Of a stretch of DNA of 64,000 nt, positions 13,855-25,441 are shown piece by piece; within the stretch, counting starts at the first letter, position 1; the number at the start of each line of letters is the position of its first letter. The notes under the pieces were generated by a model. That model ran no database searches and was not told the DNA's origin. It was given only the letters and a program-made list of their open reading frames with translations. This DNA comes from an uncultured Pelagibacteraceae bacterium (GTDB lineage: Bacteria > Pseudomonadota > Alphaproteobacteria > Pelagibacterales > Pelagibacteraceae): positions 62,001 to 126,000 of the forward strand of contig CACFAI010000001.1 in the NCBI GenBank assembly GCA_902564265.1, written 5' to 3'. Made by a program: the position numbers and the translations under genes.

Positions 13855-14310
13855 TTATTTCACTGATATTTTTAGGTTTTTGATTTTTTCTTCTAGCAAA
13901 GTTATTGCTTTATGTATTTTGTCCTTTTCAGTCTTGCTTAAAGAGGCACCTAAGTCACTTTTAGGATCGAATGCAGAGTCTGTTAAGTCCATTATGTCAC
14001 CTAAACGCCCCCCAATATTCATTAAAATCGAATTAATATTTTCAAAGTAATTAGTTTGATTCATAATTGCATGTAAGTTTGTACTTATAGCGTCATATAG
14101 TGGTGTACCTTTTGATTTTTTTAATAGTAATTCATCTATACTAATCGCATCATTGATTGATAATGTATGATTATTATCATCTGGATCTCCACATTTAAAA
14201 AAATGTGATTTACTTTTATTTGTAGCAGTTTTTAGTTCTGCATCAGTTAAATTTTTAAGTGCATTTTGTAGTGCAAACTCAATCGTGTTGGGTTTTCTTA
14301 GTTTTGTCAT
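13855..14310 (-). CDS. Possible DNA-binding regulator resembling phage CII-type proteins
   Basis: 151 residues, no signal peptide or membrane segment. The stretch NKSKSHFFKCGDPDDNNHTLSINDAISIDELLLKKSKGTPL has the spacing of alphaproteobacterial proteins with a short helix-turn-helix followed by DPDD-H-L---DAI-LD, often annotated as phage regulatory CII-like. This is recognition by pattern only. It is convergent with the propeller gene (8-base gap) and 82 bases from the small-exported-protein run, with a TATAAA box at 14360-14365 between. If the call is right, it is the only phage-related gene in the window. Confidence 0.6.
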   Translation of the reverse strand: MTKLRKPNTIEFALQNALKNLTDAELKTATNKSKSHFFKCGDPDDNNHTLSINDAISIDELLLKKSKGTPLYDAISTNLHAIMNQTNYFENINSILMNIGGRLGDIMDLTDSAFDPKSDLGASLSKTEKDKIHKAITLLEEKIKNLKISVK

Positions 14311-17308: not shown

Positions 17309-18079
17309 GTGAGTAGAATAAAAATTATTTCTGATAAAAATATTAAATCATCAAAAATAAAAAAATCTTTAGTCAAAATATTAAAAAAAAATATAGTTAA
17401 GAGAATAAATTTATCAATCGTTATAGGTGGAGATGGTTTTATGCTTCAAACTCTTAAAAAGAATAAAAATTCAAAAAAACTTTTTTATGGAATAAATTCT
17501 GGAAATTATGGTTTCTTAATGAATAAATATTCCTCAAAAAATGTAGTAAAAAATTTATTAAGAGCTAAAATGATTTCAATTTCACCATTAGAAATGACTG
17601 TCACTGATAAAAACAATCAAATTAAAAAACATATTGCTATTAATGAAGTATCAATTTTACGTCAAAGTAGGCAGGCTGCCTCTTTATCAATCAATCAGGG
17701 GTCAAAACAAATAATTAAAAAGCTAGTTTCAGATGGAGTACTTGTATCAACTCCAGCAGGAAGTACCGCTTATAATCTTTCAGTTCATGGACCTATTTTA
17801 AGTTTAAATTCAAAAAAATTATCTATTTCACCTATAAGTGCTTTTAGACCTAGAAGGTGGAAAGGGAAGATAATCGGCGATAAAACTAAAATAATTATAA
17901 AAAATCTGAACCCAAAGAAACGACCAATAAGTTCTGTAGCAGACAATATTGAAGTAAGAAATGCAAAAAAAATAGTTGTTAAAACAAATAAGAAAATAAA
18001 ATTTAATCTTCTTTATGATCAAAATAGAAGCTTACAAAATAAAATTAAGATTGAACAATTGAGAAGAGAAACATCTTAA
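17309..18079 (+). CDS. nadK: NAD kinase
   Basis: 256 residues from a GTG start. It phosphorylates NAD to NADP. The GGDGFML motif (Gly40-Gly41-Asp42-Gly43) is the kinase catalytic loop, and NEVSILR with TPAGSTAYNLSVHGPIL are the conserved substrate-binding segments. Length is slightly short but normal for alphaproteobacteria. It begins five bases after the tRNA-Leu CCA end, so it is probably expressed from the tRNA promoter and released by tRNA processing. The next gene begins four bases after its stop. Confidence 0.95.
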   Translation: MSRIKIISDKNIKSSKIKKSLVKILKKNIVKRINLSIVIGGDGFMLQTLKKNKNSKKLFYGINSGNYGFLMNKYSSKNVVKNLLRAKMISISPLEMTVTDKNNQIKKHIAINEVSILRQSRQAASLSINQGSKQIIKKLVSDGVLVSTPAGSTAYNLSVHGPILSLNSKKLSISPISAFRPRRWKGKIIGDKTKIIIKNLNPKKRPISSVADNIEVRNAKKIVVKTNKKIKFNLLYDQNRSLQNKIKIEQLRRETS

Positions 18080-18083
18080 TCAA

Positions 18084-18344
18084 ATGAAATTATCAAAATT
18101 CATATTTCTGTTACTATTACTTTCTTCTTGTGCAGGACAAACTTGGACTCATCAAAGTGGAGATAACTCAAAATTAAGTTTAGATAAGAATTTTTGTGAT
18201 AGTTTTGCGGATTCTCGTTATCCAATTTATCTTTGTAGGAACCCGCTTATGTGTGCACCAGATGAGACAAGCAAAGTGATATCAAGCATTGCTGAAAATA
18301 ATGCTGCCTTTAGAAATTGCATGTATGGAAAAGGCTATAATTAA
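18084..18344 (+). CDS. Small lipoprotein with terminal R-x-C-M-x-x-x-G motif
   Basis: 86 residues with a clear lipobox (LLLLLSSC-AGQ). The mature part has several cysteines (FCDSF, YLCRNPLMC) and ends FRNCMYGKGYN. The ending resembles that of the lipoprotein at 21707-21985 (YRKCMINRGHS), suggesting one small family. Function unknown; expected to be anchored in the outer or inner membrane. Confidence 0.75.
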   Translation: MKLSKFIFLLLLLSSCAGQTWTHQSGDNSKLSLDKNFCDSFADSRYPIYLCRNPLMCAPDETSKVISSIAENNAAFRNCMYGKGYN

Positions 18345-18386: not shown

Positions 18387-18881
18387 ATGTTTAGATTGTT
18401 GATGTCAAAAATTGATGTTTGGGAAAAGTATAGGCACGAGTCTCAACAAACTATTTGCATAATTGGTGTACTTATTCTCTCAGCAAAACTATGTAAAGCT
18501 GATGGCCATTTCAGTGAAATAGAAGAAGAAGAAATACTTAAAATTATTCCACACGAACCTCAACAAAAAAAAATATTAATTAGAATTCTAGAAGAAGCTT
18601 ACAATGATCCTAATCCAATTGAAAATGATGCAAAAAATTTAAAAGGATTACTTAAGGATGAACACCCAGAATTTTTAGAATTTATAATTGCAGTATTATA
18701 TAAATTGGCACATACAGATCGTGTTTACTCTGAATCTGAAGATGAAGATATTAGATCAGTTGCAAATATTTTTGGGATTACAAAAGGTTTTTTTAATCAA
18801 ACTCAAGAATGTATAAAAAATTATTTTAACAAAGCTACATCATCATTAAAAAAAGAAAAAAAGGGAAATGTAAATGCCTAA
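18387..18881 (+). CDS. TerB-like domain protein
   Basis: 164 residues, all helical and soluble. Two TerB-type acidic helix-loop segments are visible: LSAKLCKADGHFSEIEEEEI (31-50) and KLAHTDRVYSESEDEDI (106-122), the paired metal-binding-like pattern of tellurite-resistance TerB and DjlA N-terminal domains. In known systems TerB-fold proteins sit at the membrane and link to other partners. The gene overlaps the next one by eight bases, and that one encodes a large membrane coiled-coil protein, an obvious partner. An in-frame ATG at 18402 is an alternative start. Confidence 0.8.
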   Translation: MFRLLMSKIDVWEKYRHESQQTICIIGVLILSAKLCKADGHFSEIEEEEILKIIPHEPQQKKILIRILEEAYNDPNPIENDAKNLKGLLKDEHPEFLEFIIAVLYKLAHTDRVYSESEDEDIRSVANIFGITKGFFNQTQECIKNYFNKATSSLKKEKKGNVNA

Positions 18882-20733
18882 TCTAGATAACATATTTAAT
18901 AAATTCTTCCCTCAATCGCAAACAGGTTCAAAAGGAAAATTCTTAATCAGAATGGCTTGGGCTATAGAAATTATGGTTGCAGTAATAGGTGTTTGTATTG
19001 GTTTGATAATGATCTTTGGATCAAAACAAGTTGATGGTGAACAAGTTCAAACTGCAGCAGATCTAGCTAAATACAATGTTACTTTAAATGACTTTACAAT
19101 AGGATTGATTTTTTTAATTGTTGCTGTCGTTGAATTAACTAAAATTCCTTTAGCTAATGCAGTTTATTATTCTGTAAGATTTTTTTGGAGAGTTGTTTTT
19201 TTAATTGCACTCATTTTAGTTAACGTTTCTACATTTGAGACTATAGTTACTGGTTTTGAAAGAATAAATAGAGATAGAACTAAAATAGTTGATCAACTTA
19301 TAGTCGATTACAATAATGTAAAAACCAAAATAGAAAATTTAAGTGAAAATGCTAGAGTTTCAGATTTAGATGAAGATATAGAAAAATTAATAAAACAAAG
19401 ATCAGAAATAAATAAACAAATTAACGAGATAATGGTTGCTGATCAAACATTAATTCAAGACATCAAAGAAAGTGGCAGTAATCAGGATACAATAAAACAA
19501 TTAACAGAAGAAATTAATCAATTAAATACTGATATAAAAGATTTGAGGAAAGAAAATTCGGAATTACCAGCTAAAAAGAAAAAAGTAGGAATTCTTGGTT
19601 CAAATTCTAGTGAAATTAATAAACAAATTGATCTTAATAATAAAACAATTGAACAATATGTAAAAGATAAAAAATTCAAGGAGAAAAGGAGAGACGAGCT
19701 AATAAGAGCTTCAAGTAAAAATAATGAAGGTAGAATAAATACAATTAAAGAAGGAACTAACTCAAAAATAAAACCTTTGAATGATCAATTAGCAATTATT
19801 GCATCAAAAATTAAAAAACTTGAGGCGAGACAGGCAAAATTTAATATAAGTGAAGAAGAAAAAGACCGTCAATTGGAACAATTAGAAAACGATAAGTTAA
19901 AACTTATTGATCAGATTGATAAACTTGCACCCGATAATCAGGTATTTAGAGTTGCAACATGGTTAAAAGGCTGGTTCATAGTTGATTACAATAAAGAAAT
20001 AGAGAAAATTAATCTTCAGATTTTTGAATTACAACAACAAAAAGTCGATTCAATAACTGAAAAAAGTTGGTTTGATAATCTATTTTCAATATTTAATAAA
20101 AATAGCGAATTGGACAATGAGGCTATAGATAAACAAATATCAAGATTAGAAAAACAAATATTAGGCTTTGAAAAGAAAATTAGAAGAGAAGAAGGTATGG
20201 TTGAAGAGTCTGTTTATGCAGATTTACCTCGAGGCGCAATAACTGCGGCTTTCTGGTTATGGTTTGGAGTATTAAGTTTCATAATTTCTGTAACTGGTAC
20301 AATGTTAGCTTTTGCAAGTTTAGTATTGTTAGATCCAAGATTACATGTAATTAGAAATAAAAAAACGGCTTATTGGAAAGGTGTTTCAATAAGACTTTCT
20401 AAATTCTTTGTATTATTAAATAAATTTATCTGGGGCAGAATTAAAAGGTTTAGGGATCCAAATGTTAAAATTGTTGAAAAAAAAGTTGAGGTAGAAAAAG
20501 TTGTCGAAAAAATAGTTGAAAAACCTGTTGAGGTAGAAAAGATTGTTGAAAAAATTGTTGAGAAACCTGTTGAGGTAGAAAAAATTGTAATAAAGGAAGT
20601 AGAAGTTCCTAAAGAAATTGAAACACTAAGAAAAGAAATGGTTTATGTTCCATTACCAACTGATGATGAGGAATTATTAAAAAAAGGACCATTTAAAGCA
20701 CCTAACTACGATAAAGATAAGAAGAAAAAATAA
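18874..20733 (+). CDS. Large membrane coiled-coil protein with VEK-repeat tail, unknown
   Basis: 619 residues. Three N-terminal hydrophobic segments (about 28-48, 73-90, 104-125) are followed by a long coiled coil (about 130-400, rich in EIN/QLNTDIKDL/KLIDQIDKL heptads), one or two more helices (about 453-486, ITAAFWLWFGVLSFIISVTG) and a charged tail. The tail carries three 14-residue units of the KPVEVEKIVEKIVE type (residues 536-577). I recognise no named family. It overlaps the TerB-like gene by eight bases and the next gene by one base, forming a three-gene unit. The architecture suggests a scaffold spanning the membrane with a long rod. Confidence 0.82.
   Translation: MPNLDNIFNKFFPQSQTGSKGKFLIRMAWAIEIMVAVIGVCIGLIMIFGSKQVDGEQVQTAADLAKYNVTLNDFTIGLIFLIVAVVELTKIPLANAVYYSVRFFWRVVFLIALILVNVSTFETIVTGFERINRDRTKIVDQLIVDYNNVKTKIENLSENARVSDLDEDIEKLIKQRSEINKQINEIMVADQTLIQDIKESGSNQDTIKQLTEEINQLNTDIKDLRKENSELPAKKKKVGILGSNSSEINKQIDLNNKTIEQYVKDKKFKEKRRDELIRASSKNNEGRINTIKEGTNSKIKPLNDQLAIIASKIKKLEARQAKFNISEEEKDRQLEQLENDKLKLIDQIDKLAPDNQVFRVATWLKGWFIVDYNKEIEKINLQIFELQQQKVDSITEKSWFDNLFSIFNKNSELDNEAIDKQISRLEKQILGFEKKIRREEGMVEESVYADLPRGAITAAFWLWFGVLSFIISVTGTMLAFASLVLLDPRLHVIRNKKTAYWKGVSIRLSKFFVLLNKFIWGRIKRFRDPNVKIVEKKVEVEKVVEKIVEKPVEVEKIVEKIVEKPVEVEKIVIKEVEVPKEIETLRKEMVYVPLPTDDEELLKKGPFKAPNYDKDKKKK
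20479..20604 (+). repeat. Three tandem 42-bp units encoding a 14-residue VEK repeat
   Basis: Units at 20479-20520, 20521-20562 and 20563-20604 encode KKVEVEKVVEKIVE, KPVEVEKIVEKIVE and a partly diverged KPVEVEKIVIKEVE. The 18-base string beginning AAACCTGTTGAGG recurs exactly 42 bases apart, so the second and third units are nearly identical at the DNA level. Confidence 0.85.
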
Positions 20734-21251
20734 TGGTCCACAGAATTTACGAAACAACTACTCATGACTTCAATCCAGTTAATGAATATATTGATGAAAA
20801 AGCAAGATTAAGAAGAACTAAAAGCACATGGCGATACACTAAAGCTCTTGCATTATTTCTTTTAGCATTTGGCTTATTTCTTATTTTAGCAGCGTATGCT
20901 TATCATATTTTTAAAAAGCCACATCCAATAGAGAAAATTTTAAGCAATAAAAATAATATCTCTGAAAAAGAAGTTGATGGTGAGATAATTAATTATAATT
21001 CTACCACTCACCAATTTGACTCATACGAAACTGATGATGGCATTTCTATAACAACAAGAAGAAAATATTCAACAACTAAAGATTTACTTGAAAAAACCGG
21101 TAATTACAAAGAGGATTGTTACCTAAGAAAAAATAATATCGTAATTGAATATAAAAATAATTTAGATGATCAAACAGATAATCTAAATCTTATGAATTTA
21201 AGTAAAAGTTCAGCAAAAGATTTAGAGAAATATTGTAAATATACAAAATAA
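20733..21251 (+). CDS. Single-TM protein, third gene of the TerB module
   Basis: 172 residues. A basic N-terminal cytoplasmic-looking part (about 45 residues) precedes one membrane helix (LALFLLAFGLFLILAAYAYHIF, about 49-70), then a polar domain with two cysteines (EDCYLRK, EKYCKYTK). By the positive-inside rule the C-terminal domain is probably periplasmic. The start overlaps the stop of the coiled-coil gene (TAATG), so it is very likely translated with it. No family recognised. Confidence 0.75.
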   Translation: MVHRIYETTTHDFNPVNEYIDEKARLRRTKSTWRYTKALALFLLAFGLFLILAAYAYHIFKKPHPIEKILSNKNNISEKEVDGEIINYNSTTHQFDSYETDDGISITTRRKYSTTKDLLEKTGNYKEDCYLRKNNIVIEYKNNLDDQTDNLNLMNLSKSSAKDLEKYCKYTK

Positions 21252-23312: not shown

Positions 23313-24704
23313 ATGAACCATAAGATATATTTTGGTGATAAAATTTTCTTTTTTTTTTTATTATTTCTTGGAATTTTTACAATTTTTTATCAGATTAATT
23401 TTGAGGATTTATGGTTAGATGAAGTAAGCTCATTCTGGATTGCTGACCCAAATTTATCTTACCCTGAAACAATAGCTAGACATAATGAAACAGATTACCA
23501 TAATCCAGTTCTATTTAATTTAGTATTAAAATACTTTTTTAAAATTTTTGGATACACACCCGATATAGCAAGATATTTGACATTATTTTTTGGATCTCTC
23601 TCGTTTATTTTCATTGGATTAATTTCGTATCAAGAAAAAAAAAATAATTACTTTCTTTTAACCACTTTTCTCGCTTGCGTTAGTATTTATATAATCAAAT
23701 ATTCTCAAGAATTACGACCATACTCTCTTTTATTATTAACCAGTTCTTTAAACATCTTTTTTTATTTGAGATTGCTCAAAGAAGATAAAAAAATAGTTGA
23801 TATTATTTTGTTTATAATTTTTTCAGTGATTAATTATTCAGTAAATCCATTTTCGCTAATAATTTTTTTTTCACAAATTACATATACGTTTTATCGTTAT
23901 TTGTTATTCAGCAACAAATACAAAAATTTTTCAATCTTTTATTTAATTATTTTGATTATTTATCTATTTTTAAATTATAAATATATTTCCTATCAAATTT
24001 CATTTGATAATTACATGCTTTCTCATGACATTAAAAATGTTTTTGATGGATTTTATTTTCCTAGATTTTTTGGTTCAAAGATTATGGGTTATTTTTATTT
24101 GATTTTGTTAATGTTCTTAATCATTAAAAGTAGTAAAATTTTTTTACTAAGAGAAAATAATTACATGTTTTTTTTAATCTTAATTTTTTTTTCTTATCTT
24201 TTACCTTTAGGTTATGCAATAATTCGGACACCAGTTTTTCATGATAGGTATATAATATTTATTCTAATACCAATTTTTGCTCTTATCACTTTTTTAATTA
24301 GCGAAATACACAATAAAAAATTAAAGATTTTTTTAATATCTTTCCTTACTATTATGACTTTATCTAATCATTATATTGAAATTTTTAAAAGAATAAATAC
24401 AAAACCAGAATTTAAAAAAACTTTAAATTATATTAATGACAGTAATACAAATGTTGTTGTTTTTGATTTTGGTGGTAACTCTTTTCTATTTAGTAACTAT
24501 ATAAAGAATATGAATAATCAGAAATTTTCTAAATTGATTTTTGTAGAAAAAAACGATTTTAAAAATCAAAATACAGATTTTTGGTTTATCTGTTATTCAA
24601 CTGATCCAAATTTTAAATGCGTACCTAAAAATATAAAAAATAATAAATTAATTGACACTAAAAAAAATTTGCATGTAGAGGCAAAGCTGTATCTTGTAGA
24701 CTAA
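23313..24704 (+). CDS. Glycosyltransferase family 39-like integral membrane protein
   Basis: 463 residues with about ten membrane helices. The N-terminal loop DLWLDEVSSFWIA carries the Asp-Glu pair typical of PMT/ArnT-type (GT39/GT83) enzymes that move a sugar from a polyprenyl-phosphate donor, and HNPVLFNLVLKYFFKIFG follows as in that superfamily. The acceptor is unknown; a cell-envelope glycan or protein is likely. Its stop overlaps the convergent rlmB stop by four bases. The gene is extremely AT-rich even for this window. Confidence 0.78.
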   Translation: MNHKIYFGDKIFFFFLLFLGIFTIFYQINFEDLWLDEVSSFWIADPNLSYPETIARHNETDYHNPVLFNLVLKYFFKIFGYTPDIARYLTLFFGSLSFIFIGLISYQEKKNNYFLLTTFLACVSIYIIKYSQELRPYSLLLLTSSLNIFFYLRLLKEDKKIVDIILFIIFSVINYSVNPFSLIIFFSQITYTFYRYLLFSNKYKNFSIFYLIILIIYLFLNYKYISYQISFDNYMLSHDIKNVFDGFYFPRFFGSKIMGYFYLILLMFLIIKSSKIFLLRENNYMFFLILIFFSYLLPLGYAIIRTPVFHDRYIIFILIPIFALITFLISEIHNKKLKIFLISFLTIMTLSNHYIEIFKRINTKPEFKKTLNYINDSNTNVVVFDFGGNSFLFSNYIKNMNNQKFSKLIFVEKNDFKNQNTDFWFICYSTDPNFKCVPKNIKNNKLIDTKKNLHVEAKLYLVD

Positions 24705-25441
24705 TCTCTTTTCAAGCTACTTAAATGATGGAAAATAATTGCAGCAGAGTTAGATATATTTAAACTTTCAATTTTATTATTAATGTTTATCTTTACAAAA
24801 AAATCCACATACTTCTCAGTTTTTTGATTGAGACCAAATCCCTCAGATCCAAAAAGTAGAACATTATTTCCTTTCCAATTTTTTTCTGTAAATACTTCTT
24901 TTGATTTATTATCAAATCCGTAAACCCAAAAATTCTTTTCCCTTAAATATTTCAAAGTTGAATTTATATTTGAAACTTTAAAAATATTCATGTGTTCAAT
25001 AGCACCACTGCTTGCTTTATACATAGTTTTACTTGTTTCTGGAAAAATTCTTTCTTGAACAATTAAACCGTCGATTTTAAAACTTGCTGCGCTTCTTATA
25101 ACTGAACCAATATTTCTTGGATCTGTAACGTTTTGAAGGCAAGCTAAGGTTATATTTTTTTTTAAATTTATTAATTCTTTCAAAGAATTATTTATCAATG
25201 GCTCAACCTCAGCAACATAACCTTGATGAAGTATTTGCTCATTTTTACAATATTTATCCAGTTCTTTTTTAGTCTTAAAAAAAACTTTTACATTTTTAAG
25301 TAAGTTAATATTTTGATTTTCTCTGTTAATACTTTTTTTGCTTTCCTCAGTTAAAAATATTCTTAAGACTTTTCTATTAGGATTTTTGAGGGCTTCTGTT
25401 ACAGGGTGTTTTCCGACTATAAAAAAATTTGAATTTGTCAT
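24701..25441 (-). CDS. rlmB: 23S rRNA 2'-O-methyltransferase, RlmB type
   Basis: 246 residues of the SpoU/TrmH family. The N-terminal substrate-binding part opens FFIVGKHPVTEALKNPNRKV, and the SPOUT methyltransferase domain has its three motifs: NVTDPRNIGSVIRSAASF, LLFGSEGFGLN and LNISNSAAIIFHHL. In E. coli RlmB methylates G2251 in the 23S P-loop. RlmB is preferred over TrmH because of the N-terminal extension and order. Divergent from the tRNA-Tyr/tuf unit, with 131 bases between. Confidence 0.88.
   Translation of the reverse strand: MTNSNFFIVGKHPVTEALKNPNRKVLRIFLTEESKKSINRENQNINLLKNVKVFFKTKKELDKYCKNEQILHQGYVAEVEPLINNSLKELINLKKNITLACLQNVTDPRNIGSVIRSAASFKIDGLIVQERIFPETSKTMYKASSGAIEHMNIFKVSNINSTLKYLREKNFWVYGFDNKSKEVFTEKNWKGNNVLLFGSEGFGLNQKTEKYVDFFVKININNKIESLNISNSAAIIFHHLSSLKRD

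Follow-up and report, generated by a model that had tools for sequence, protein, structure and literature searches.

Gene organization of the locus

The locus analysed here raises the question of what a TerB protein does when its gene overlaps one for a membrane protein with a long coiled coil, followed by one for a protein with a single membrane segment. It lies in a 64,000-nucleotide stretch of an uncultured Pelagibacteraceae genome (the window). Gene A (18387..18881, + strand) encodes a TerB protein of 164 aa predicted to be cytosolic, gene B (18874..20733, +) a predicted inner-membrane coiled-coil protein of 619 aa, and gene C (20733..21251, +) a predicted bitopic protein of 172 aa. The overlap is 8 bases between A and B (18874-18881) and 1 base between B and C (position 20733), as the original prediction had said; its word "giant" overstated a protein of 619 aa. 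Since A, B, and C are conserved in dozens of loci, chance ORFs can be excluded. A promoter scan of the triad locus gave scores no better than those of shuffled sequences, and no terminator was found there. The named relatives of the locus are Pelagibacterales (SAR11). The host genome (0.92 Mb) is 79% complete, and thus absences of genes from it are provisional.

Protein A

Protein A matched the Pfam TerB family PF05099 (E 1.2e-9, 39 bits against a cut-off of 24.4) and, by profile, the solved TerB structures 2ou3 and 2jxu. In an alignment of 20 relatives, D39, G40, E46, and E118 were invariant and D111 was near-invariant. The paired acidic pattern read from the single sequence is thus confirmed. 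The best matches of the nearest relatives to A were longer proteins of the DjlA type, which combine TerB with a J domain (for one match, the J domain was read from its sequence). However, A is TerB only, with no further family recognised in it by Pfam, NCBIfam, PADLOC, or PHROGs, and the NCBIfam DjlA model scored it far below the cut-off (16.6 against 162 bits).

TerB is also what the triad has in common with the ter operon (terZABCDE). We found no match to the TerD/TerE/TerZ family (PF02342) in the 79% complete host genome, and the two matches to the TerC family (PF03741) are on contigs C2 and C4, while the triad is on C1. The absence of terC, terD, and terZ from the window stands, and a tellurite context for this TerB is unsupported, as neither terD nor terC is linked.

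Protein B

Protein B has four hydrophobic segments by hydropathy, in line with the several TM segments expected. The membrane module with TM1, TM2, and TM3 (18955..19248, +; alignment, hydropathy, and model) carries the invariant residues E32, E87, T89, K90, I91, P92, T120, and E122. It is followed by a coiled-coil hairpin predicted to be periplasmic (19249..20229, +; model, hydropathy, and pairwise comparisons), TM4 (20230..20331, +; model and hydropathy), and a predicted cytosolic tail (20332..20730, +; charge count after TM4, conservation, and repeats). The repeat tail noticed earlier is real and consists of V-E-K repeats (about 20446-20613, +), with the conserved motif KExVYVPLPTDDPELLKKGP near the tail end (about 20629-20691, +; alignment). 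In the AlphaFold2 model (mean pLDDT 73, with a low-confidence tail), long helices span residues 103 to 440, and those between TM3 and TM4 cover residues 103-157, 160-199, 204-237, 244-322, and 327-354. The coiled coil is therefore present as predicted, with a length of about 330 rather than about 270 residues. It measured 328-344 residues in 15 of 22 sequences (full range 278-404), at a median identity near 21%.

After TM4, there are 12 K/R against 2 D/E residues. This excess puts the tail inside the cell, and a tail inside together with three TM segments before the coil puts the coil outside. We infer from these features that the coil is periplasmic and the tail cytosolic, and a cytosolic TerB associated with a membrane partner, as first proposed, is consistent with this predicted topology.

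No family match to B was found in Pfam, NCBIfam, or PHROGs, nor by sequence among solved structures, which agrees with the claim that B is outside the well-described families. The membrane module alone and the tail alone also gave no match as profile queries. The fold search with the B model returned generic antiparallel coiled coils only, such as an SMC arm (best Z 11.4, which is ordinary for long helices; the missing fold match is no proof of a new fold). A kinship to LmuB or SMC was rejected. The PADLOC match to LmuB (E 4e-9) covers only the coil (residues 147-445), and Lamassu LmuB and SMC proteins have an ATPase head besides the coil, whereas no ATPase domain was found in B with Pfam.

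Searches of phages found no relative of B or C. The IMG/VR matches to B were mostly V-E-K low complexity, except for a membrane-module match on a 191 kb contig (L110:7836-9362), a B relative whose tail resembles the cytosolic tail of B. Two weak genome matches (L149 and L151), which resemble ABC permeases, were left out. Meanwhile, three genomes (L148, L152, and L153) have B relatives with neither A nor C nearby, and these lack the conserved tail end, as read from their sequences. In this small sample, the missing tail fits a tail that would link B to its partners.

Protein C

Protein C has one TM segment by hydropathy, as proposed, and the cysteines of its probable periplasmic domain (20931..21248, +; AlphaFold2 model and pairwise comparisons), C129 and C168, are invariant in the alignment. 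The pLDDT of residues 91-170 is mostly above 87. The family consists of a conserved 60-residue N-terminus and TM segment, a coil of very variable length, and a C-terminal two-cysteine domain, with a total of 171 to 826 aa. C had no family match in Pfam, NCBIfam, or PHROGs, and the fold search gave no convincing match for the outer domain (best Z 3.6 for that part). In Rhizobiales, the position of C is occupied by a single-TM protein with PAN domains, which are normally extracytoplasmic; for that of Microvirga, kinship to C is supported (E 1.6e-7). In one C of 564 aa (L082:9770-11461), the N-terminus, TM segment, and coil run into glycosyltransferase-like sequence and the two-cysteine domain is gone.

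Distribution and linkage of the three genes

B is present in 15 of 397 genomes of the order, including the host genome, and in none of the 60 nearest relatives. For the 28 relative loci compared (L074-L101), each count is restricted to those long enough to show the neighbour. Of 26 such loci, 25 have A upstream of B, and all of 24 have C downstream of B; the exception for A is L098, with B, C, and an SNase gene and no A. In two of the A-B loci, a 152-aa coil-less relative of B, which is the membrane module alone, stands between A and B (L087:7542-8000 and L088; also L065:7396-7854).

Other arrangements were found in more distant Alphaproteobacteria. Marivita (L103) has an SNase gene, B, C, and a convergent TerB gene above the PF05099 cut-off. 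A third alphaproteobacterial lineage (G660, locus L150) has B, C (own-profile match, E 3.2e-23), and a convergent TerB-like gene, which scored 23.1 bits with PF05099, just under the cut-off of 24.4, and E 3.7e-6 with our own profile. Marivita sequences had been included in the own profiles, and thus only G660 is an independent profile test of the two. The three genes do stay together in relatives, as the original prediction required.

Short overlaps favour staying together, and A, B, and C might be unrelated neighbours kept side by side by descent only. However, the genomic site of the triad varies within the order, and in Marivita and G660 its genes are arranged in another way. This in the main refutes linkage by descent only, which we consider extremely improbable. 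The triad is a co-inherited module and, judged against open-access papers, probably an undescribed one, although an earlier description is possible.

Genomic site of the triad

The triad is cargo between nadK (17309..18079, +) on the left and an rlmB-like RNA methyltransferase gene (24701..25441, -) on the right. In three genomes that lack the triad (G011, G009, and G017), nadK and rlmB are direct neighbours, about 120-130 bases apart, and in four others (G008, G004, G005, and G016) other genes lie between them. Downstream of nadK, G016 has a methyl-directed restriction enzyme (E 1.9e-30) and G015 a type IIG restriction enzyme (E 3.3e-264), where rlmB is beyond the stretch examined. The remaining contents of the site were sugar genes and housekeeping-like genes, and therefore it is a general variable region and not only a defence island. 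The window has tRNA-Leu and tRNA-Thr genes next to this site and within it.

At another genomic site, the triad is bordered by a TerC-family gene that has an SDR gene as its neighbour (L074:11780-12376 and L071:13401-13976). This TerC-family gene looks like a core flank and not a part of the module. In addition, a 151-aa gene of the window (13855-14310, -), with no Pfam match, has a relative near the L065 triad (2002-2469).

Exchange of predicted periplasmic segments

Three pairs of close loci share 92-100% identity in the membrane and cytosolic portions of B and C. The identity of the predicted periplasmic part fell to 36-62% for C in all three pairs and to 50-81% for B in two of them. For instance, between the window and L074, amino acid identity was 80% for A; 98%, 50%, and 98% for the N-terminal part, coil, and C-terminal part of B; and 92% and 36% for the N-terminus and outer part of C. 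For this pair, the synonymous test gives little support by itself (p=0.036), and the NG86 dS of the coil is possibly inflated by poor alignment; the claim of exchange therefore rests on L085/L086 and L094/L095.

Between L085 and L086, nucleotide identity was 94-99% in A and the start of B, 95-99% in the B tail, and 91-100% in the gene after C, but 76-87% in the coil and 61-81% in the outer part of C. Counted at identical residues, synonymous differences amounted to 52/201 for the coil and 16/286 for the flanks (p=2.6e-10), and the test for outer C gave p=1.4e-8. Between L094 and L095, identity was 97% for A, 100% for the whole of B, 100% for the C N-terminus, and 62% for outer C, and synonymous differences were 28/82 in outer C against 15/505 in B (p=4e-16); identity is lower further downstream too, so that only the left edge is sharp. 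Divergence of the coil was not seen in the close pairs L074/L075 and L087/L088.

A raised synonymous difference argues for replacement by a diverged allele and not only for fast protein change. The synonymous differences thus point to local exchange of the outer segments, and this segmental exchange of the predicted periplasmic parts of B and C is what is new here. Since only the periplasmic faces are swapped between close strains, the partner they recognise would be fast-changing.

Another reading is that the triad serves in competition, with outward domains that are polymorphic like those of toxins or receptors. In C, the outer part changes and the N-terminus and TM segment are kept, and an additional gene stands after C in L095 but not in L094. 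However, the variable part of C can still be aligned as a single family with two cysteines, and C is not followed by a constant immunity gene; the next gene differs between loci and is sometimes absent on that strand. We regard such a system as quite improbable. Three loci (L065:10380-15185, L087, and L088) carry seven related genes in tandem after C, which encode exported proteins of about 190-210 aa (IEGISIGDSLLDYF); the one member examined (L087:11107-11673) had no Pfam match.

Recurrent neighbours

A gene for a small lipoprotein of 86 aa (18084..18344, +), an accessory with the lipobox-like start LLLLSSC, precedes A in the window, and a relative is directly upstream of A in 11 of the 28 relative loci. 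An SNase gene is at most one gene away from the triad in 10 of 28 (L078, L081, L083, L089, L090, L091, L092, L094, L095, and L098). The background in the relatives is about one SNase gene per genome, and several triad genomes have a second copy exactly beside the triad. The triad-linked SNases keep the D-[GA]-D-T and R...D-[TA]-P-E motifs and a signal-peptide-like start. SNase genes are absent beside the triad of the window and many other copies, and thus SNase is not obligatory. In five genomes of the second family (G040, G044, G048, G051, and G055), a core SNase gene lies about 3 kb from a djlA-like gene.

These SNase neighbours are one reason to consider a structural or transport machine across the periplasm, such as a tether or a system for uptake of extracellular DNA or nutrients, with SNase digesting DNA for phosphorus. 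The hairpin is long enough for the periplasm, its length is narrowly distributed, and the membrane module of B has invariant E and K residues. However, no known transporter or porin partner recurs beside the triad, and swapped outer parts are less expected for a nutrient machine, which makes this reading unlikely in our judgement.

PrsW, trypsin-like proteases, and Sel1 proteins lie beside some copies of the triad. The first two, together with the TerB fold of A, would suit an envelope-stress or metal-response module, in which the periplasmic parts sense damage and TerB relays the signal, as proposed for Ter systems. However, no terD was found in the genome, its terC genes are unlinked, and a sensor of general stress would not have to be a rare cargo whose outer parts are exchanged locally. 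We doubt this explanation to the same degree as the transport machine.

In two distant relatives, defence genes are close by: CBASS genes at a distance of up to about 2 kb in Mesorhizobium, and a McrBC pair up to about 5 kb from B in G660.

Comparison with known defence systems

Three defence systems, Shango, Bunzi, and Dionysus, contain TerB (PMC10250203, PMC10952713, PMC12926258). Shango, found in a variable hotspot, shares TerB with the triad, but it pairs TerB with an ATPase and a DEAD/DEAH helicase (PMC10250203). The triad has no such gene: none was found in B or C with Pfam and NCBIfam, or among the recurring neighbour clusters compared.

SNIPE is a membrane nuclease that acts at genome entry (PMC13190303). 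It shares with the triad the membrane location, a conserved core with a variable region (the adapter in SNIPE), and the idea of a nuclease. However, SNIPE is a single protein with DUF4041 and a GIY-YIG nuclease (PMC13190303), whereas the nuclease linked to the triad, when present, is a separate exported SNase. Neither DUF4041 nor GIY-YIG was matched in the triad proteins with Pfam or PADLOC.

The layout of the triad resembles yet another system. In Zorya, ZorAB consists of a multi-TM protein with a long coil and a single-TM partner, as do B and C. The B coil, in contrast to ZorAB, is predicted to be periplasmic, between TM3 and TM4. With sequence profiles only, B, its membrane module, and C had no Pfam match, neither to the MotA/ExbB domain of ZorA nor to a ZorB-type partner, and PADLOC reported no Zorya.

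Proposed function

The predicted topology and the shared inheritance of the genes point to a single envelope complex, with TerB on its cytosolic side. We think it very probable that A, B, and C form one envelope module, reaching from the cytosol through the inner membrane to the periplasm. B would be anchored in the inner membrane by four helices, and its antiparallel hairpin between TM3 and TM4 would reach into the periplasm, with an arm of about 165 residues, which would measure roughly 24 nm when fully straight. The B tail, with its V-E-K repeats and VPLPTDDPE motif, would lie in the cytosol with TerB as its likely docking partner, and C would span the membrane once beside B, with a probable disulfide in its periplasmic domain. 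A physical complex of A, B, and C and the docking of TerB on the B tail are what we infer from this arrangement. The module moves as cargo, often with an exported nuclease or lipoprotein. Its periplasmic faces may recognise something fast-changing, most likely phage entry components, and recognition may be passed through the membrane to TerB or to the exported nuclease.

Defence at phage DNA entry is favoured by the cargo status, the restriction enzymes at the same site in sister genomes, the CBASS and McrBC genes near two distant relatives, and TerB in known defences. Several observations stand against it. SNase is not constant beside the triad, PADLOC 2023 gave no match for A or C and matched only the coil of B, defence genes were seen near the triad in just two distant relatives, and B occurs alone in three genomes. 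Surface proteins under different pressures, such as grazers or ligands, could likewise exchange their exposed parts. On balance, we hold an envelope module that defends at phage DNA entry to be a tentative reading, with somewhat less than an even chance. The fuller picture, in which a new envelope immune complex with a periplasmic coil as ruler and exchangeable recognition faces detects the entry of phage DNA and acts through TerB and often also through an exported nuclease, is possible and rather doubtful.

SAR11 bacteria belong to the most common cells of the ocean, and to our knowledge few of their defences against abundant phages have been recognised. The exchange of outward parts hints at an arms race, for example in defence against viruses. 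Two unnamed protein families with TerB, carried as moving cargo and with changing outer faces, are a concrete candidate for a SAR11 defence, and the triad offers a setting for testing the role of TerB at membranes.
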